Source of the DNA: Micromonospora sp. R77 | GTDB taxonomy: Bacteria; Actinomycetota; Actinomycetes; Mycobacteriales; Micromonosporaceae | Length of the DNA stretch: 64,000 nt | Assembly (NCBI RefSeq): GCF_022747945.1 | Contig: NZ_JALDST010000001.1 | Location: forward strand, 1,240,001 to 1,304,000 | Direction: 5' to 3' | Part shown: in pieces, positions 22,156 to 33,885 of the stretch | Layout of the letters: every line of letters starts with the position of its first letter | How positions within the stretch are numbered: the stretch's first letter is position 1 | Translations under genes and position numbers: made by a program | The notes under the pieces: model-generated | Told to the model about the DNA's origin: nothing | What the model saw: the letters and a program-made list of their open reading frames with translations, nothing else | The model's database searches: none

Positions 22156-25100
22156 TCAAGCCCCGGCCGGCGTGGGTGCGGCCGCTCGCTGGACGACTTC
22201 CTCCGTGGTCAGCGGACTACGAGGATGGTGGGTCAAGCACATCGCGGCCTGCATCTTCACGAATCGGGCACCCTCCACCCCGGTGTAGAACTGTCCCGTA
22301 CGCATCTTGCCGACATCCGGGATGTCGGTACCCTTCGCCCTGGCGACCTCACGGGCTGCCTCGATCTGCACCGGCGCGGTCAGCAGACCGAAGAGCTGGG
22401 TGGCCGCGTTGCCAGGGATCTGGTTGTGCAACGCCTTCGGCGCCTGGGTGGCGAAAACCAGGCCCAGCCCGTATTTGCGGGCCTGGGAGGTCAACGCCAA
22501 GGTGCTCTGGGTGCAGGCGGTGACAGCGCCGGAGGGAGCGAGAGTCTGCGCCTCGTCCATCACGAAGAGCCCACCAAGTGGCCGATCCCCGGCGGGATGA
22601 CGCTTGATCCAGGTGAACAGGGCGAGCTGCAGCTGGTTGACGAAACTCTGCCGCTGGTGGTCCTCGGGCAGCCCCACGAAGCTGATCACGGACACCCGGG
22701 CGCGTCGACCGGGACCCGGGGTAAACAGTTCCCCGGGGTCGACGGGAGTACCGACGCCGCCGAACAACGGATCGTTGATCAGTGCGGCCTTGAGCAGTTG
22801 CGACATGGCCGCCCCCAGCTTGGGTGCGCTGTCGATCTGGCTCACCCCGTCCGGCAGGTCGTTGAGCACCTCGGTGAACTCGCGAAGGTCGTTGGCACCG
22901 GTGCGCGCGTAGCTGATCAACGCCTCCCGCAGCACGGCCCGCCCCAGTCGCGCCTTGTCCGTGCCACCGTCCACCCGCGCGTGCGGGGCGAGCGTGGCGA
23001 CGGCAGCGTTCACCGCGGCGGTGAACCCGTCCGGATCGTCGAGCACCTCGGCGAACCTGGGTAGCGGCTGGAAGGTGAGTGGTCGGCCGCTCTGCCGCCC
23101 CGGCGTCCAGATGACGACGTCGGTGCCGGAGAGGTACGCCTCGGCCAGGCGGCTGTCGTCCGGCCCCCATCCCTGCGGCGCCGCCGGCCACGCCTCGCCC
23201 AGCCGGGCCAGGTCGTTGTTCGGGTCGAGCACGATAGCCGAGACTCCGCGCAGCGCGCACTCCTCGACCAGGCGACGGATCAGGACGGTCTTGCCCGAGC
23301 CGGACCCGGCGAAGATGACCGTGTGCCGGCGCAGTACCTCGAGATCGATCCGCAGGGGGTCCGGCCGTCCGGCAACGGTTCCGAGCGGCATCGACGAAGG
23401 ATCGATCCCCGCGACCGGCTGCGCGCTCACGACGGGCACCGCCGGTCCGGCCCCCGGCGAAATAGCGGGGGGGCGCGGATCGGTGGTACCGGGCCTCGGC
23501 GGAATCGGGGCACCCTCGGTCACCGTCGCCAACGACGCCTGGGGCGGGACGGCCGACCTCGGCTCCGGCCGCGGCGGGCCACCCGGTCGCCGTGTCGGCT
23601 CGGCCGCGTCGGACCGCCCGCCCAGCGCCTCCCTGAGGAAGGTGATCTCCGAAGCTGGTCGCCGGTCGGCGAACCACGGGCGCAGGGTCTCGAGCCCGTA
23701 GTGGTGGACGAGCTGTTCGAGGGCGGCCAGTCGACGGATGTCGGCGGCGGAGAAGGGCAGCGTCCGGCCGCCAGCCCGCTCGAACGCCTCCAGCACTTCA
23801 CGGGTACGAGCGCCGGCAGACCATGGCGTGCTGCGCAACAGGAACAGCCGACGCTTGGCGACTCCCTCGGTGAGCCCGGCGGTGGTGACGGCGTTGCGGA
23901 TCCGGTTGAGCGCGGCGATGTGATGAGGCGCGGAAACCGCCCGGAACGACCAGTGCTCTTCGTCCTCGCTCTCCTCGTCGAGGCTGTGTCGCAGTCGCGC
24001 GTGCAGGGCCGGCTTTCCGCCGACGGGGAGGGGGTCGAGGCTGAAGGCGTCGATGGCGCTTCCCTGCTCTGCTATCCAGGCGGTCAGCCCGGCTCGCAGC
24101 AGTGAAGGAACCGTCCCGTCCTCGGCCTGGGGAAGGACGGCGAGCTCGGGATCCGCACGGTCGACAAGTTCGGCATATCTGGCGTCGATCTTGTTCAGCT
24201 GGTCCTGCGAGCTGCTGGCTGCCGCCGTGCCGACCGTTGAGGTCGACTCGGCCACAAAGGCCGAGGGGTCGGCGGTGGCGTGCAGCAGGTGCCGGAGTTC
24301 GCGTACCTCGTCGGCCGCGAGGCACGCTCGGACGTGCGTGTCGATCCGGCGGAGCAGTTCGCGAGGGGTGAAGCCGACCACCTCGTCGAACGCCGACGGG
24401 TGAACGGGCCAGGTCGGGTAAGGCGGCTGGAACCCGAGTTCGTCGAAGATCACGGCGAACCGCTTCTCGACCAGCTCCCGTCCCACCGCGGTGGCGGGGA
24501 TCTCCTTGAGCGGGGCCGCTTCACGGAACCGGTCCTGGACCGTGTCGGTGGCCTGTTCCTTGACGTTCTGCCAGGTCTGCGGGAGGCAGGACACGACGGA
24601 CAACGACCGCCTGGTGGTCTCCCGCAACGCCATCAGCCCACTGGCCACCTGCTCCAGCAGCAGTGACGTCTGCCAGTCGGTCTCGCCCCGGACATCCTGG
24701 TTGGTCGCCTTCACGGACTGGGCCACCATCAGGTCGATCTGATCGACCGCGATCACCGTCGGGCCGACCATCGCCAGCAGTCGGGACGCATCACGGACCA
24801 CCTCCTGCGGGGCCCGCCGGCTGCGCCGCAGGCCCCACCCGGCCCGGGTTCCCGGCTCCTCTTCGTCACTGGAGCAGAGGAAGTCGTAGCCGACGTCCTG
24901 CATCGCGGGATCCTCGGCGGCGTAGAGCACGAGCGCTCGGGCCGTGTCCTGGCACTCGGTTCCGATCTGGCGATTCGCCTTGCGGACCAGGTCGATGAAG
25001 GCGTCGAGTGCGGGGCGGGTGAGCTCACTATCCCCGGTGACCGCCCGGCGGACCGACCGTGGGGCACCGACCAGGTCCGCCAGCAGGCGCAGGAACGTCC

Positions 25101-25470
25101 GCAGTTGCGTCGTCCCGTCCGGCATGGGCCGGGCGAAGTCCGCCAACATCGACATGGCGGTGCTGTGCCAGAACGCCCGCGCCTCCAGCAGCGCGACCAG
25201 GAAGAAGAACCCACCGCGCCGGTGCACCTCCTGGCGCACCGTGCCGAGGAGGTGGGTCTTGCCGGTGCCCCGCTGGCCGAGTACGGCGACGCCCACCGGA
25301 CTGGAGTCGGCGCTGCCGTCCGCCTCCAGGAAGCTGTCCAGCACCGTCCTGACGACATCGTGGTGCAGGCCTTCGACATGGAACGGGGCCGGCTTCCAGA
25401 CGTCGTCCGGAGTGGGGGCCCAGTTGAACCTCAGCGCGGCCAGGGCACGCCGCTCCTCGTCACCGATCAT
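22156..25470 (-). CDS. Two-ATPase protein: AAA/STAND-like plus HerA/FtsK-like
   Basis: This 1104-residue protein has two P-loop modules. The first has Walker A GQRGTGKT at 65-72 and a Walker B-like TVIAVDQIDL at about 238-247, and resembles AAA/STAND-type ATPases. After a Pro-rich linker (about 620-700) the second has Walker A GSGSGKT at about 722, IVLDPNND, Walker B LFVMDEAQTL at about 968-977 and VFATQAPKAL (sensor or arginine-finger region), the pattern of HerA/VirB4/FtsK-type DNA motors (DUF87-like). It overlaps the upstream winged-helix gene by 4 bp (ATGA), so the two are co-translated. A DNA-translocating motor coupled to a regulatory ATPase is likely; a defence role is inferred from the divergent trypsin-STAND-WD40 locus. 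Not a family I can name. Confidence 0.85.
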   Translation of the reverse strand: MIGDEERRALAALRFNWAPTPDDVWKPAPFHVEGLHHDVVRTVLDSFLEADGSADSSPVGVAVLGQRGTGKTHLLGTVRQEVHRRGGFFFLVALLEARAFWHSTAMSMLADFARPMPDGTTQLRTFLRLLADLVGAPRSVRRAVTGDSELTRPALDAFIDLVRKANRQIGTECQDTARALVLYAAEDPAMQDVGYDFLCSSDEEEPGTRAGWGLRRSRRAPQEVVRDASRLLAMVGPTVIAVDQIDLMVAQSVKATNQDVRGETDWQTSLLLEQVASGLMALRETTRRSLSVVSCLPQTWQNVKEQATDTVQDRFREAAPLKEIPATAVGRELVEKRFAVIFDELGFQPPYPTWPVHPSAFDEVVGFTPRELLRRIDTHVRACLAADEVRELRHLLHATADPSAFVAESTSTVGTAAASSSQDQLNKIDARYAELVDRADPELAVLPQAEDGTVPSLLRAGLTAWIAEQGSAIDAFSLDPLPVGGKPALHARLRHSLDEESEDEEHWSFRAVSAPHHIAALNRIRNAVTTAGLTEGVAKRRLFLLRSTPWSAGARTREVLEAFERAGGRTLPFSAADIRRLAALEQLVHHYGLETLRPWFADRRPASEITFLREALGGRSDAAEPTRRPGGPPRPEPRSAVPPQASLATVTEGAPIPPRPGTTDPRPPAISPGAGPAVPVVSAQPVAGIDPSSMPLGTVAGRPDPLRIDLEVLRRHTVIFAGSGSGKTVLIRRLVEECALRGVSAIVLDPNNDLARLGEAWPAAPQGWGPDDSRLAEAYLSGTDVVIWTPGRQSGRPLTFQPLPRFAEVLDDPDGFTAAVNAAVATLAPHARVDGGTDKARLGRAVLREALISYARTGANDLREFTEVLNDLPDGVSQIDSAPKLGAAMSQLLKAALINDPLFGGVGTPVDPGELFTPGPGRRARVSVISFVGLPEDHQRQSFVNQLQLALFTWIKRHPAGDRPLGGLFVMDEAQTLAPSGAVTACTQSTLALTSQARKYGLGLVFATQAPKALHNQIPGNAATQLFGLLTAPVQIEAAREVARAKGTDIPDVGKMRTGQFYTGVEGARFVKMQAAMCLTHHPRSPLTTEEVVQRAAAPTPAGA

Positions 25471-26138
25471 GACGAGATGGCGATGAGGTGCTTGTCCTGG
25501 TTGCCGATGCTGACTGCGGCGGCCCGCTCCTCCGGCCGGAGCACCTTCTGGTTCGATTCGGGCACCAGGTGCACGTTCCGCTCCCGGTTCAACTCCACCA
25601 GGGCGGCGTCGACCTCGGCACGCGACAGGTCGTCGAGGGCCGACCGCAGGTCGGACAGCATGACGTAGTCACCGGGCGCAGCAGCCAGTTCCCGGTACGT
25701 CTGGCGTACCCGCGCGACCGGGTCGGCCTGCCGGTCCGGTGCGGGGTCGGACGCCGGCGCTGCGGTCACCGCCGAGACGACGTCGCCACCGGTGATTCGC
25801 AACCGGAACAGGTCGTCGGCGCGGGTGCCCGAGTGGTCGATCAACCGGCGCAGGAAGTCCAGTGCGACGTAGAGCGTGCCGCCGGCAGCCCCGGCGCGCT
25901 TCGGCGGCTCCGCTCCCAGTTCCTCGGCGGCCCGCTTCCATCCCTCGTCGGTCAACTCCAGGGTGATGGGCTTCTCGGCGACCTCGATGAGGCCGAGGGA
26001 TTGCAGCCGGCGCCGATGGTCGGGCTTCATGCTGATCCCCACCACATTGGTGAAATATGTCTGCGGCAGCGGCGTTGCCTTGATCATGAGGGTGACGAGA
26101 ATGCACCGGTCAACGAGCGTGAGTTCCTTTTCCGGCAT
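25467..26138 (-). CDS. Winged-helix-like protein, partner of the two-ATPase gene
   Basis: The 223-residue protein starts at ATG 26138 with AAGGAG seven bases upstream. Residues about 1-70 (VDRCILVTLMIKATPLPQTY, then GISMKPDHRRRLQSLGLI and ITLELTDEGWKRAAEEL) look like a winged helix-turn-helix. The C-terminal part (YVMLSDLRSALDDLSRAEVD, AALVELNRERNVHLV) looks like a second winged helix. It overlaps the two-ATPase gene by 4 bp, so it probably acts with it as a DNA-binding or targeting subunit or as the operon regulator. No family recognised. Confidence 0.7.
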   Translation of the reverse strand: MPEKELTLVDRCILVTLMIKATPLPQTYFTNVVGISMKPDHRRRLQSLGLIEVAEKPITLELTDEGWKRAAEELGAEPPKRAGAAGGTLYVALDFLRRLIDHSGTRADDLFRLRITGGDVVSAVTAAPASDPAPDRQADPVARVRQTYRELAAAPGDYVMLSDLRSALDDLSRAEVDAALVELNRERNVHLVPESNQKVLRPEERAAAVSIGNQDKHLIAISS

Positions 26139-26506
26139 GCGGATGCTCCTTAGCGGCGCGCTCCCTCATCACGTTCCGGTGATGACCGAAGCCTCGAAGG
26201 GTGGCCGTGCTCCAGGCAACGGGGCGCCCCGTCGCCGGGCCGATTCTGCCGACGCCGACCGGCGAGCGCAAGGTCACCAATCGGGCTGCAGAAAAACGAC
26301 AGCACAGTAGAGTCGATCTTCCCAGGTCCTGCTTGGACGGCAGCGCGGAAATGCCCGAGCGGCACGATCCGGAGTGAACGAACGACGCACCGTTGCCAAA
26401 CATCGGTGGCAGGAGGCAGCATGGTTGACCGGCGCGAGGCAGGTCGGCCATTTCGGCACCGGACTCTCACGCACCCCCTTTCCGCGAATCCGTCACGGAG
26501 GCGACC
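26139..26506. promoter_or_regulatory. Divergent intergenic region of the conflict locus
   Basis: This 368-bp gap separates the winged-helix/two-ATPase operon (left) from the Trypco1/trypsin-STAND-WD40 operon (right), so both promoters should lie here. It is more AT-rich around 26280-26330 than the flanks (GCAGAAAAACGACAGC, then CAGTAGAGT). I could not identify a convincing -35/-10 pair or palindrome. No gene is supported in it. Confidence 0.5.
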
Positions 26507-26836
26507 GTGCAGCCCGAGGTGGTCCGTTACCAGGTCGACGAACAGACGGTCGCGCTGATCGAGGTGGAACCGCCCGCCGGTTTCCAGCCCGCCGGGGTCG
26601 GCGACGTCGCCGGCTGGGTACGGGAGTCCGCCGCGCCTGTGGTGGCTGCCGCGAAGGAACTGCTCGAAGAGGTGAAGACGGTCGCCCCGGACGCCGTCGA
26701 GGTGAAGTTCGGGGTCAAAGCCACCGGGACCGCGAGCTGGGTGGTGGCCAAGGCGACCGCCGAGGCCAACTTTGAGGTCACGCTGCACTGGAACGCCGCC
26801 GGCTCGGACGAGCGCGACACGAGGCAGGGGCGTTGA
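26507..26836 (+). CDS. Trypco1 (CU044_2847-family) protein
   Basis: From the GTG at 26507 (ACGGAGG five to seven bases upstream) this 109-residue protein reads VQPEVVRYQVDEQTVALIEV ... VKFGVKATGTASWVVAKATA ... FEVTLHWN. The beta-rich half with VKFGVKATG and a terminal ...TLHW strand matches the trypsin-co-occurring domain 1 family, small proteins encoded beside trypsin-like peptidase/NTPase genes in predicted bacterial conflict systems. Here it lies 15 bp before the trypsin-STAND-WD40 gene. It is likely a partner, substrate or regulator of that protease; which one is unknown. Confidence 0.8.
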   Translation: MQPEVVRYQVDEQTVALIEVEPPAGFQPAGVGDVAGWVRESAAPVVAAAKELLEEVKTVAPDAVEVKFGVKATGTASWVVAKATAEANFEVTLHWNAAGSDERDTRQGR

Positions 26837-26851
26837 CGGACGGGACGGCCG

Positions 26852-29800
26852 GTGACCTCAGCTCCTGACGACAGCCCCTGGGCGGTCGCACTCCATCGGG
26901 GTAACCAGCACGCACCGGTCGGCACCGGCGTGGTCATCGACACGAGCCTGATCCTCACCTGCCACCACGTGGCGTTCGCCGCTGACGGCACCCTGCACGA
27001 CGACCTCTCGGTCGCCTTTCCGCGGGCCCCCAAGGTCAAGTACTTCGATCGGCGCAAGATCCGGCAGTGCCTGCACAACGGGATGCGGGCCGCGCACGTC
27101 GACCTGGTCGTGCTGGAACTCGTCGAGCCGGTGCCGGCGACGGTCGCACCGGCCCGACTGCGCTGCCTGGAGCCCGGGCCGCTGCTCGGCCGCCCCGTCT
27201 GGGCGTACGGCTATCCGGCCGCGGTTGACGGCGGCACGTCGGCCACCGGCACCCTCACCGACATCGGCGGCTGGGGACGCGTCATGATCGACAGCGGTAC
27301 CGGCGGCACGCTGAGCAAGGGCTTCAGCGGCGGTGCGGTCTGGTCGCCGGAATACCAGGCTGTGGTCGGTGTCGTCGTCACCGCCGACGGGCAGGGCAAG
27401 GGGCAGGCGGTGACCCTCCACTACGCCGACGAGCAACTCCCCGAGATGAAGCTGAGGATGCTCTCCGCGTGGCGGGTTGAGGACGCCGACGACACCGCCC
27501 TCTCTGCCTGGGGTTGGACGCTGAGCACCGACGGTGAGGCCGGGCGCCACTGGTTGCCCCGCGCCCGGGGCGTGGCGGTCGACACCGAGGGCGGGGCTCG
27601 GTTCCGCGGCCGGACCACCGCACTCCAGCAAATCGTGGACTGGATCGACGGGACGGCACCGGTCACCCGGCCACTGATCGTCACCGGATCCCCCGGTGTG
27701 GGCAAGTCCGCGGCCCTCGGCCGGATCGTGACCACCGCCGACCGGCAAATTCGGGCGACCCTGCCGGACGATGACGTCGCCGTACGGGCCACCGTCGGCT
27801 CGGTCTCGTGTGCCGTGCATGCCAAGGGCAAGACCGCCATCGAGGTGGCGACGGAGATCGCCCGCGCCGTCGCCGTCGACCTGCCTGCCGCACCGGCCGA
27901 CCTGATGCCGGCCGTACGCGAGCGACTGGAGCGACGGCCCACCCGCTTCGCGCTGATCATCGACGCGCTGGACGAGGCCGCCGACCCCGGCCAGGCGCGA
28001 AGCGTCATCACCGACATCCTGCTGCCTTTGGCCCGAGATTGCGGCCGGTACGGGGTCCGGGTCGTGGTCGGCACCCGACGTTCCGACGATCGCGGCGACC
28101 TGATCGCCTGCTTCGGCGCGGACGCCGAGCTGATCGATCTGGACACGCCCGAATACTTCGCCGAGTCCGATCTCGTCAACTATGCCCAGGCGACCTTGCA
28201 GCTGCTCGGCGCCGAGCGCCCGACCAACCCGTACACCGATCCCCGGAGCGCCGCGCCGCTCGCCCGGCGCATCGCCGCGTTGGCGAAGGGGAACTTCCTC
28301 GTCGCCGGTCTCGTCGCGCGGGCGCACGCGCTGCGGGACATCGAGCCGGTCGATCCGGCCCTGGTGTCGTTCACCGCCACCGTGGCGCACGCACTGGACG
28401 CGTACCTCGCCGGGTTGCCGGCGGCCGGCTCGACCTCCGCCCGGCTGGCGCTAACCGCTCTGGCGTACGCCGAGACACCGGGTCTGCCGCTGGGTCTGTG
28501 GCACGCCGCGGTGACGGCCCTGGGCGGGACGGTGACCGAGGCCGAACTCGGCGGCTTCGCACGGACCTCGGCGGCGAACTTCCTGGTCGAGACGGGCGGC
28601 GGCGCGCAGCCGGCGTACCGGTTGTTCCACCAGGCCCTCAACGACGCGTTGCTGGCGGACCGGGACGTACGATCATCGCGCCGGGACGACCAGCACCGGC
28701 TGGTGTCGGCCTGGACCGAGCCGGTCGCCGCCGCCGGTTGGGCCGACGCCCCCGACTACCTGCTGCGGTCGCTTCCGCAGCACGCCGCCCGGGCCGGGCT
28801 CGTCGAGCGGCTGCTCGTCGATGAGGACTACCTGCGGCACGCGCACCTGGACCGGCTGCTCACCGTGGTGGACTCGACACCGGCACCGATGGCGCCCCTG
28901 CCGCTGGCCAGGGCCCGGCTGCTGCAACGTACGCCGCTGGCGGTGTCGGCAGAACCGGCCGAACGAGCCGCACTCTTCTCGGTCGTCGACCGCCTCGACG
29001 GCCTGCACAGCGGGATCGTGGCGGACGCCGCACCGTACCGGGCCCGGTGGGCGCACTCCCCGCCGCGGCAGGAACGCAGCGTGCTCGACGGGCACTCGCA
29101 GGCCGTCTACGACGTCGCCGCCGTCGAGATCGACGGCCGCCGGTTGCTCGCCTCCGCCGGTGACGACGGTACCGTCCGGCTCTGGGACCCGTTGACCAAT
29201 CAGGCCGAGCAGGTCTTCACCTGCCACGACGACACGATCCGCAGCGTGTGCGCGGTGCGTACCGGCGCCGGCAAGGTGCTGATCGCCACCGCCAGCCACG
29301 ACGGCACGGTCGGGCTGTGGGATCCACAGACCGGCCACCGACGGCACGAGCTGCGAGGACACCACGACTGGGTACGCAACGTCTGCGCCATTCCACTGCC
29401 GACCGGCGACCTGCTCGCCTCGGCGGGCGACGACCGCAGGGTACGGGTGTGGGACCCGGTCACCGGCACCCAGCAGTACGAGTTGATCGCGCACGCCGGT
29501 TGGGTCACGGCCGTGACGTACGTGCCGGCCGGCGGCCGCCACCTGCTGGCTTCCACCGGTTACGACGGCGTGATCCACATCTGGGAGCCCACCGCCACGG
29601 GTCGACCCGCGCTGACCCTTACCGGTCACGTGGGCTGGGTCACCACTCTCTGTGCGGTCCGTACACCCGACGGCATGCTGCTCGCCTCGGCGGGTTACGA
29701 CGGCACCGTCCGGCTCTGGGACCCGCTGACCGGCCGACCGGTCCGGAGCCTGGAGACCGGTGGTCCGATAACCGATCTCTGCACGGTCGACGTCGGCGAC

Positions 29801-30922
29801 GGTTGCCTGTTGGCCTCCACCGGCGAGGACGGGCTGATCCGGCTGTGGGAGGTGCCGAGCTGGGCGATCCGGCCGAGCCTGCGGGGGCACGCGGCCTGGA
29901 TCCGTGCGGTGTGCGAACTGCGGACGTCGGCGGGCCGGATGCTTGCCACCGCGGGAGACGACGGCACGGTGCGGTTGTGGGACCCGGCCGGCGGCCAACC
30001 GGACACGGTCGCCGAGCACGACAGGTTTGGACCGGTGGACGCGCTCTGCCGGGTCCCCGGCGAGCAGCCGACGGTGGCCTCGGGCGGCGCCGATGGTCAG
30101 GTACGGTTCTGGGACGTCGACACCGGCGCGCGACTGCCGGTGGAGTTCAAGACGGACGGCTGCGTGAGCGCGATGTGCGCGATCGCTGACGCCGAGGAGT
30201 CGCTGGTGCTCACCACCGGCGACACCGATGTGGTCCAGACGTGGGACGCCCGGGACGGCTACCCGGTGCGGCAGATGCTCGGCCACTACGCCCCGGTCGC
30301 GGCGGTCTGCCCCATCATCGTCCACGGGGAGACCCTGATCGCGTCGGCCGGCGACGACCAGGTCATCCGGGTGTGGGACCCACACACCGGCGTCGTACGA
30401 CAGGTCCTGCTCGGGCACGTGACCCGCGCCTGGGTGACCGCACTGGCCACGGTCGCCTGCTCCGGCTTCGAAGCGCTCGCCTCCGCGGACAAGAGCGGCA
30501 CGGTGATGCTGTGGGTCGGTGGCGACACCCCACTCTGGACCCAGCACGGCCACCAGGACGCGGTGACCGCCCTTTGCGGTGTCACGGTGGCCGGCCGGCC
30601 GGCGGTGGTGTCGGCCAGCGCGGACCACGCGATCCGGATGTGGGACGCCGAGCAGGGTCAGCCGGTTCGGTGGTTCATCGGGCACCGGGGGCCGGTCACC
30701 GGACTGAGCCTGGTGAGGAGCGGGCCCCGGACCCTGCTCGCCTCGACGAGCCGGGACCGTACGGTACGGCTCTGGGACCTGGTGAGCGGACGATTGGTAC
30801 GGACCATCCCGGTCTACCATCCGGCGCTCACTTGCTGCACTGTCGGCGACACCCTACTGGTGGGTCTGGACCAGGGCCTGCTGGCTCTAACGATCGCGGA
30901 GTGGGACGGTAGCTTCCGCTAG
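26852..30922 (+). CDS. Trypsin-STAND NTPase-WD40 repeat protein
   Basis: This 1356-residue protein starts at GTG 26852. Residues about 10-200 are a trypsin-like protease: H39 in ILTCHHV, D84 in HVDLVVLEL and S159 in GFSGGAVW form the triad. Residues about 270-700 are a STAND/NACHT-type NTPase: Walker A GSPGVGKS at 279-286 and LIIDALDEA at 368-376, followed by helical repeats. From about 740 to the end there are 13-14 WD40 blades (VRLWDP, VGLWDP, VRVWDP, IRMWDA and so on), enough for two seven-blade propellers. No signal peptide, so cytoplasmic. In such conflict proteins the propellers are thought to sense a ligand, the NTPase to oligomerise and the protease to act as effector. All key residues are intact. 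A long hairpin terminator follows. Confidence 0.93.
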   Translation: MTSAPDDSPWAVALHRGNQHAPVGTGVVIDTSLILTCHHVAFAADGTLHDDLSVAFPRAPKVKYFDRRKIRQCLHNGMRAAHVDLVVLELVEPVPATVAPARLRCLEPGPLLGRPVWAYGYPAAVDGGTSATGTLTDIGGWGRVMIDSGTGGTLSKGFSGGAVWSPEYQAVVGVVVTADGQGKGQAVTLHYADEQLPEMKLRMLSAWRVEDADDTALSAWGWTLSTDGEAGRHWLPRARGVAVDTEGGARFRGRTTALQQIVDWIDGTAPVTRPLIVTGSPGVGKSAALGRIVTTADRQIRATLPDDDVAVRATVGSVSCAVHAKGKTAIEVATEIARAVAVDLPAAPADLMPAVRERLERRPTRFALIIDALDEAADPGQARSVITDILLPLARDCGRYGVRVVVGTRRSDDRGDLIACFGADAELIDLDTPEYFAESDLVNYAQATLQLLGAERPTNPYTDPRSAAPLARRIAALAKGNFLVAGLVARAHALRDIEPVDPALVSFTATVAHALDAYLAGLPAAGSTSARLALTALAYAETPGLPLGLWHAAVTALGGTVTEAELGGFARTSAANFLVETGGGAQPAYRLFHQALNDALLADRDVRSSRRDDQHRLVSAWTEPVAAAGWADAPDYLLRSLPQHAARAGLVERLLVDEDYLRHAHLDRLLTVVDSTPAPMAPLPLARARLLQRTPLAVSAEPAERAALFSVVDRLDGLHSGIVADAAPYRARWAHSPPRQERSVLDGHSQAVYDVAAVEIDGRRLLASAGDDGTVRLWDPLTNQAEQVFTCHDDTIRSVCAVRTGAGKVLIATASHDGTVGLWDPQTGHRRHELRGHHDWVRNVCAIPLPTGDLLASAGDDRRVRVWDPVTGTQQYELIAHAGWVTAVTYVPAGGRHLLASTGYDGVIHIWEPTATGRPALTLTGHVGWVTTLCAVRTPDGMLLASAGYDGTVRLWDPLTGRPVRSLETGGPITDLCTVDVGDGCLLASTGEDGLIRLWEVPSWAIRPSLRGHAAWIRAVCELRTSAGRMLATAGDDGTVRLWDPAGGQPDTVAEHDRFGPVDALCRVPGEQPTVASGGADGQVRFWDVDTGARLPVEFKTDGCVSAMCAIADAEESLVLTTGDTDVVQTWDARDGYPVRQMLGHYAPVAAVCPIIVHGETLIASAGDDQVIRVWDPHTGVVRQVLLGHVTRAWVTALATVACSGFEALASADKSGTVMLWVGGDTPLWTQHGHQDAVTALCGVTVAGRPAVVSASADHAIRMWDAEQGQPVRWFIGHRGPVTGLSLVRSGPRTLLASTSRDRTVRLWDLVSGRLVRTIPVYHPALTCCTVGDTLLVGLDQGLLALTIAEWDGSFR

Positions 30923-31173: not shown

Positions 31174-33885
<2,712 letters not shown>

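Follow-up and report, generated by a model that had tools for sequence, protein, structure and literature searches.

The HerA-Sir2 system reportedly consists of a HerA ATPase and an effector enzyme, which together form an anti-phage complex. DUF4297-HerA is also an anti-phage complex (PMC11291478; here and below, statements about published systems refer to the accessible parts of the cited texts). HerA/FtsK capture systems combine HerA with Orc/CDC6 ATPases, winged helix-turn-helix (wHTH) proteins and restriction endonucleases (REases), and have been proposed to intercept the DNA of invaders (PMC10853773); a related system has seven parts (PMC12839542). On the proteolytic side, LypABC of Caulobacter is a CARD-NLR-like peptidase/ATPase system, the overproduction of which is toxic (PMC13236601), and trypsin-like effectors in related conflict systems have been discussed (PMC8195603, PMC10907252). 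The component called Trypco1 was defined in PMC7159879. Here, we describe a four-gene locus of Micromonospora sp. R77 in which a HerA-type motor and a trypsin-like protease are encoded side by side. It is found in a stretch of 64,000 nucleotides, referred to as the window (assembly GCF_022747945.1, contig NZ_JALDST010000001.1, positions 1,240,001 to 1,304,000 of the forward strand), and coordinates are given as positions of the window. The four genes apparently constitute a conserved unit of soil actinobacteria that was formed once. A reading that we consider evenly balanced between right and wrong is that they encode one anti-invader system, in which a HerA-capture arm would be coupled to a Trypco1/trypsin-NACHT-WD40 output arm, the nuclease having been exchanged for a STAND protease.

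The source genome comprises 7.14 Mb, and the closest named relatives of the window proteins belong to Micromonosporaceae. The locus is composed of two diverging operons. The left half, on the reverse strand, encodes a 1104-residue fusion of an AAA ATPase and a HerA/FtsK ATPase (AAA-HerA; 22156..25470; Pfam PF01935, 2.1e-10; PADLOC mad8, 3.8e-19) and a 223-residue partner, putatively a wHTH protein (25467..26138), the two genes being joined by an ATGA overlap. The right half, on the forward strand, encodes a 109-residue Trypco1 protein with a GTG start (26507..26836; Pfam PF19493, 8.6e-18; NCBIfam NF041216, 4.7e-18) and, after 15 bp, a 1356-residue trypsin-NACHT/STAND-WD40 protein (26852..30922), assigned from its Pfam domains. 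The start codons of the two operons are 368 bp apart (control region, 26139..26506). An initial annotation, made from the letters of this DNA, had described the same four genes, two diverging operons and 368-bp control region, all of which lie at the positions that it gave.

Matches to the 223-residue protein were found in 122 of 200 genomes of the family, and matches to Trypco1 in 123 of the same 200. These genome searches scored a part of the first-look candidates, e.g., 15 per genome in the family and 7 per genome in a sample of the phylum. The spread is patchy, i.e., the small protein is found in 8 of 13 genomes of the genus (first sample); in the phylum sample of 396 genomes it matches in 10, six of these matches being strong and all falling within the same order, and the plasmid-borne relatives described below show a wider reach of the module. 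Among the 84 small-protein matches listed, at least 23, including all of the best 19, have a divergent Trypco1 gene at 308-409 bp, a lower bound from the comparison of partial lists of the two proteins. Stretches of approximately 13-21 kb around the matches were read with profiles of each gene, and 75 loci were kept, including that of the window and omitting L003 and L005, which are duplicates, and L105-L113, nine pieces that are extensions or cut. Because most of these loci stem from the upper end of the 200-genome small-protein list, i.e., non-randomly and with two loci from several genomes, the shares given below are not natural frequencies. The AAA-HerA gene is found beside the small-protein gene in 74 of the 75 loci. 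Adjacency of the two operons, which the initial annotation had named as the test of its one-system idea, is seen in 33 of the 75, where the trypsin-NACHT-WD40 gene is divergent from the left pair, in 26 loci with Trypco1 and in 7 without. A gene matching a DUF559-type profile is found upstream of the left pair, on the same strand, in 38 loci; DUF559 we take to be a PD-(D/E)XK-type domain. The nuclease-type gene and the protease gene occur together in none of the 75 loci. A reverse search with residues 227-736 (510 residues) of the trypsin-NACHT-WD40 protein gave 80 places in 59 of the 200 genomes. All 25 places with at least 60% identity lie beside the left pair, which in one case, where the contig ends, is represented by the beginning of the small-protein gene. 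Among the 45 places with at least 44% identity, 31 are linked to the left pair, 13 are unlinked and one (G078) falls outside the comparison, as do the 35 places with at most 42% identity.

Phylogenetic analyses support co-inheritance of the two halves. In a quick AAA-HerA tree with 71 proteins (further omitting L073 and L090, which are short, L114 and L119), the 32 protease-linked proteins form one group with a Shimodaira-Hasegawa-like approximate likelihood ratio test (SH-aLRT) value of 99, which corresponds to one change of partner; none of 500 shuffles gave a count as low. A tree of 47 trypsin-NACHT proteins likewise places the 34 linked proteins in one group against the 13 unlinked ones (100/99). 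Pairwise distances in AAA-HerA and trypsin-NACHT are correlated over 32 loci (0.918; as high in none of 999 permutations), a value to which shared species history may contribute. When the AAA-HerA tree was extended, with 35 of the 71 rows and eight new ones that include distant relatives and four loci from another family, the protease-linked proteins again formed one group (11 rows, 100/99). In the distant relatives, the DUF559-type gene, the small-protein gene and the AAA-HerA gene follow each other in this order; they are from Nonomuraea (57% identity), a Tsukamurella plasmid (45%) and a plasmid of the alphaproteobacterium Methylobacterium aquaticum (36%). As the arrangement with a nuclease is seen in this remote plasmid-borne relative, the simplest account would be an ancestral nuclease order in which the protease replaced the nuclease once; the grouping fits such a single partner swap. 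The midpoint root of the extended tree falls on the Methylobacterium branch, which is very long, and the polarity of the change therefore rests on one distant row and on gene order. No relative was found in IMG/VR, searched with two peptide patterns, or in 50,697 phage records (E 1e-10), i.e., viral carriage was not observed in these collections.

The trypsin-like domain of the right-half protein comprises residues 4-184 (26861..27403; Trypsin_2, 1.8e-10; Trypsin, 4.7e-07). H39 and S159, which the initial annotation had marked as catalytic, fall together with D84 on the trypsin catalytic positions in the alignment. The domain is followed by a NACHT/STAND ATPase (AAA_22, 3.5e-08; NACHT, 26.3 bits, slightly under the cut-off of 26.7) with the P-loop lysine K285 (27704..27706), which is found in 46 of 47 rows, i.e., in all rows aligned at this position (L075 is unaligned there). 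The WD40 repeats at residues 744-1325 (29081..30826; PF00400, 2.3e-74, 11 stretches; outer limits taken from other propeller models) complete the trypsin-STAND-WD40 architecture that had been assigned beside a Trypco1-type protein, and this assignment of the right-hand side is confirmed by the domain matches. A comparison of H39, D84 and S159 over the 47 trypsin-NACHT proteins showed that the triad is intact in 35 of the 36 encoded with Trypco1, the 36th (L066) being split over two assembly frames, and in one (L146) of the 11 encoded without it. Fisher's test yielded 2e-9 or 2e-8, depending on the scoring of L066, values that are too optimistic as the rows are related. The triad was lost at approximately five places on the tree (L068-L073 together, L004, L141, L148 and L152), and the trypsin domain of L068 and L152 cannot be aligned at all. 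A permissive search for Trypco1 in the eleven loci gave no convincing match (best E 0.12). From the fact that its presence tracks that of the triad, Trypco1 seems to belong with protease activity, and the pairing with the left half seems to survive without it. In L143 and L144, which are unlinked copies, the Trypco1 gene is divergent from the trypsin-NACHT-WD40 gene instead of in front of it.

The AAA-HerA protein has two ATPase regions. The initial annotation had identified an AAA/STAND-like ATPase and a HerA/FtsK-like motor, of which the motor stands firmly: the HerA/DUF87 match passes the Pfam cut-off, PADLOC mad8 (PDLC04140) covers residues 708-1076 and matches all 25 aligned relatives, and the PADLOC HerA model matches at 3.2e-09. 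The profile gives weak matches to HerA chains of the PDB (best 1.9e-06). The named models for the N-terminal ATPase are below their cut-offs (Pfam AAA_16, 25.5 bits vs 32.6; nSTAND5, 23.5 vs 34; an ORC-CDC6-like model, 14.9 vs 27), while its P-loop is invariant. This motif, GQRGTGKT, was assigned by eye at residues 65-72 (25255..25278, reverse strand, as are the motifs that follow); G65, G68, G70, K71 and T72 are invariant in two alignments (23 and 25 relatives), as are D243, Q244 and D246 of the Walker B-like DQID at residues 243-246. The HerA P-loop, GSGSGKT, is located at residues 722-728 (23287..23307; alignments, motif assigned by eye) and the Walker B region, DEAQ, at residues 972-975 (22546..22557); DEAQ is invariant in the 23-row alignment, and in the 25-row alignment D, E and A are invariant and Q nearly so. 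A weak hint of partner-specific residues is given by 17 columns that are conserved in protease-linked AAA-HerA proteins and rare in nuclease-linked ones, 14 of which precede residue 600.

For the 223-residue protein the term wHTH is used as a label, and MarR family is a label found in a few source names of its relatives. Matches of the small-protein profile to calmodulin in the PDB (best 3.7e-04) were judged to be due to chance. Both operons are likely to share regulation through the conserved control region. In an alignment of this region from 18 of the 26 Trypco1-bearing paired loci, the 10-mer CCGATTCTGC (26240..26249) and GCAAG (26268..26272) are invariant, and the region holds more conserved blocks; the two elements would represent a putative promoter or operator.

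Taken together, these observations can be accommodated in the following model. AAA-HerA and its co-translated small partner would form a capture ATPase complex of the HerA/FtsK kind and act on invading DNA. Many relatives would combine this complex with a co-translated DUF559 nuclease, while in the lineage of the window the nuclease would have been lost and the divergent Trypco1 and trypsin-NACHT-WD40 proteins would have taken over as the output. Upon meeting invader DNA, the capture complex would, presumably by physical contact, relay a signal to the NACHT-WD40 switch. Together with Trypco1, a dedicated co-factor or brake, this switch would release the trypsin-like protease, and the released protease would stop the infected cell. 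The more specific form of this scheme, in which signals pass from a double-ATPase motor via an NLR-like NACHT-WD40 part to a trypsin-like protease, with Trypco1 as an obligate brake or activator that is missing where the catalytic residues are lost, is put forward tentatively, as we rate it somewhat below an even chance.

A number of observations weigh against the single-system model. The right half also exists alone, as no left pair accompanies it in 13 of the loci examined, and in 4 of the 75 loci the left pair is found with neither a recognized nuclease nor a protease gene. Seven paired loci (L004, L068-L073) are devoid of the trypsin catalytic residues or domain and of Trypco1, so that proteolysis is not always the output, and killing by the protease, which had been proposed earlier, cannot be the whole function. 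In the other family, where four strong matches were found, two left pairs have a match to the nuclease-type profile and two do not, so that a nuclease-type gene may be absent or unrecognized elsewhere. No model of Pfam, NCBIfam or PADLOC matches the 223-residue protein, and its wHTH fold is putative. Nine flanking proteins scanned with Pfam include no defence gene, and the window is thus not in an obvious defence island. Finally, shared species history may account for part of the distance correlation. The earlier proposal of one system is upheld as to adjacency, the single linked groups and the linkage of all places at 60% identity and above, and has to be narrowed in that the locus is a derived special case of which the halves also live apart.

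The observation of separate halves is what would be expected if two independent defence units shared a control region, i.e., a nuclease-less HerA-capture unit and a stand-alone Trypco1/trypsin-NACHT-WD40 suicide unit, held together by co-regulation or by chance. The 38 loci in which the left pair has a nuclease-type gene, the four with neither partner, the 13 right halves without a left pair and the conserved blocks in the control region are all compatible with such an arrangement. However, an independent neighbor would not explain why none of the 33 paired loci has the nuclease-type gene. Furthermore, both ATPases stay conserved, every right half with at least 60% identity is accompanied by the left pair (in one case, at a contig end, by its small gene), and the pairing is kept in the seven loci despite the loss of the trypsin residues. 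We consider this alternative unlikely, although it is the one that fares best. Those same seven loci, in which the gene and the pairing persist without trypsin residues or domain and without Trypco1 while the NACHT lysine is kept, also suggest a model where the trypsin-NACHT-WD40 protein is a guard and regulator that senses the state of the AAA-HerA complex instead of acting as its effector, and where any proteolysis that is retained would trim, e.g., the small partner. This model is improbable, since 26 of the 33 paired loci keep Trypco1 and the triad residues (in one locus over two frames), and there is no known substrate.

The single anti-invader system remains our preferred interpretation, and because of the company of the left pair the locus likely defends against invaders. 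The upstream nuclease-type genes were recognized with a profile built from eight proteins, in three of which Pfam DUF559 was checked and found (9.7e-12 to 8.2e-10). In 11 of the 38 nuclease-bearing loci the left pair is followed by csb1 and csb2, i.e., the operon of nuclease-type gene, small protein and AAA-HerA heads type I-G CRISPR-Cas genes (L077-L079, L082-L084, L086, L087, L089, L090 and L095; extended in L105-L110). PADLOC identified cas3 in three, cas4/1 in two, cas2 in one and cas8g in one of the sampled csb loci, and a search of four regions found repeat arrays in each, the largest listed family having 25 to 92 copies. Csb1 occurs at 24 places in 21 of the 200 family genomes, 11 of them behind the left pair; of the 13 others, 11 were checked, giving one with Cmr4, one preceded by an AAA-HerA remnant and nine without a left-pair match. 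The idea that AAA-HerA substitutes for Cas8 in type I-G loci was ruled out by the presence of Cas8g between cas3 and cas4/1 (in L109, PDLC01374, 3.6e-91). Unusual I-U loci have been described in actinomycetes (PMC4223832, PMC12231136).

Further neighbors were noted in single loci. In L155, a Cmr4 (type III-B) gene and others lie between the left module and csb1, possibly a mixed CRISPR island. A possible partner is the AIPR gene directly downstream of AAA-HerA in L116 (L116:13644-15362; 1.7e-40; weak MzaE match), where the left pair has no nuclease or protease partner. In L167, from Tsukamurella tyrosinosolvens (NZ_LR134464.1, labelled plasmid), the left module lies within a ribosomal-protein gene cluster, between rpsQ and rplN, accompanied by a DUF559 gene, a VapB/PIN pair and a DEAD-box helicase. 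A housekeeping or mobile-element role of the left pair as a DNA translocase, outside defence and with coincidental neighbors, would agree with its frequency in the family (122 of 200 genomes for the small protein) and with the four loci with neither partner, one of which has ordinary neighbors (two genes scanned), but is very improbable given the patchy occurrence in the genus, the partners found (nuclease-type gene, CRISPR-Cas genes, AIPR gene and STAND protease) and the plasmid-borne relatives in other lineages, one of them an alphaproteobacterium. In the window itself, an ordinary enzyme with GH10, ricin-B lectin and GH62 domains is encoded directly beside the locus (31237-33885), and the left flank gene is present in just 9 of 61 genomes of the genus.

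These data suggest that a DNA-motor module can replace a nuclease by a STAND protease, i.e., one effector class by another, without losing its core, and that the new arrangement has since persisted while the sequences diverged widely. If the model is correct, DNA-motor and NLR-protease branches of bacterial immunity are joined in one four-gene locus and Trypco1 gains a function. Three questions become testable, namely whether an NLR-like protease can be triggered by a HerA-type motor, what the role of Trypco1 is, and why certain type I-G CRISPR-Cas loci are also headed by this motor-nuclease operon.

No published description of a HerA-protease pairing was found in titles and abstract openings, a search that mainly covered openly accessible literature; the accessible part of PMC12669027 does not mention HerA. 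Avs1b gave a weak NCBIfam match in one relative only. In DUF4297-HerA and HerA-Sir2, as far as they are described in the sources available, two proteins operate with a nuclease or NADase effector, without the second ATPase and the protease of the present locus. The HerA half resembles mad8 of MADS, but a PADLOC scan of the four locus proteins revealed no other mad gene. LypABC shares with the right half the combination of a peptidase with a STAND/NLR-like ATPase, while its abstract names neither a HerA arm nor Trypco1 (PMC13236601). The Trypco1/trypsin conflict systems have an N-terminal trypsin-like domain in a larger protein with Trypco1 as a neighbor, and the locus likewise has a Trypco1 gene adjoining a trypsin-domain gene with an intact triad. 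They differ, in the part of the report available, in having VMAP and MoxR-vWA partners in place of NACHT, WD40 and HerA (PMC7159879); no MoxR or vWA partner, as described for the ternary system, was found among the nine flanking proteins scanned against Pfam. The left module, which the initial annotation could not name, fits the capture theme of PMC10853773, as do the nuclease-bearing relatives: a HerA/FtsK ATPase domain with intact motifs, as required in such systems, is coupled to a second ATPase, which may be of the Orc/CDC6 or STAND type, and 38 of the 75 relatives have a nuclease-type gene. The words "DUF559" and "trypsin" are absent from the text of PMC10853773, and "trypsin" also from that of PMC12839542. 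An active REase is not apparent at the locus, as none of the 33 paired loci, including that of the window, matches the DUF559-type profile. In contrast to the capture systems described, both ATPases here reside in one chain, the nuclease of the relatives is of the DUF559 type, and the lineage of the window has a Trypco1/trypsin-NACHT-WD40 output instead of a nuclease. Judged by its gene content, the locus is a derived variant of HerA/FtsK capture that falls short of full membership.

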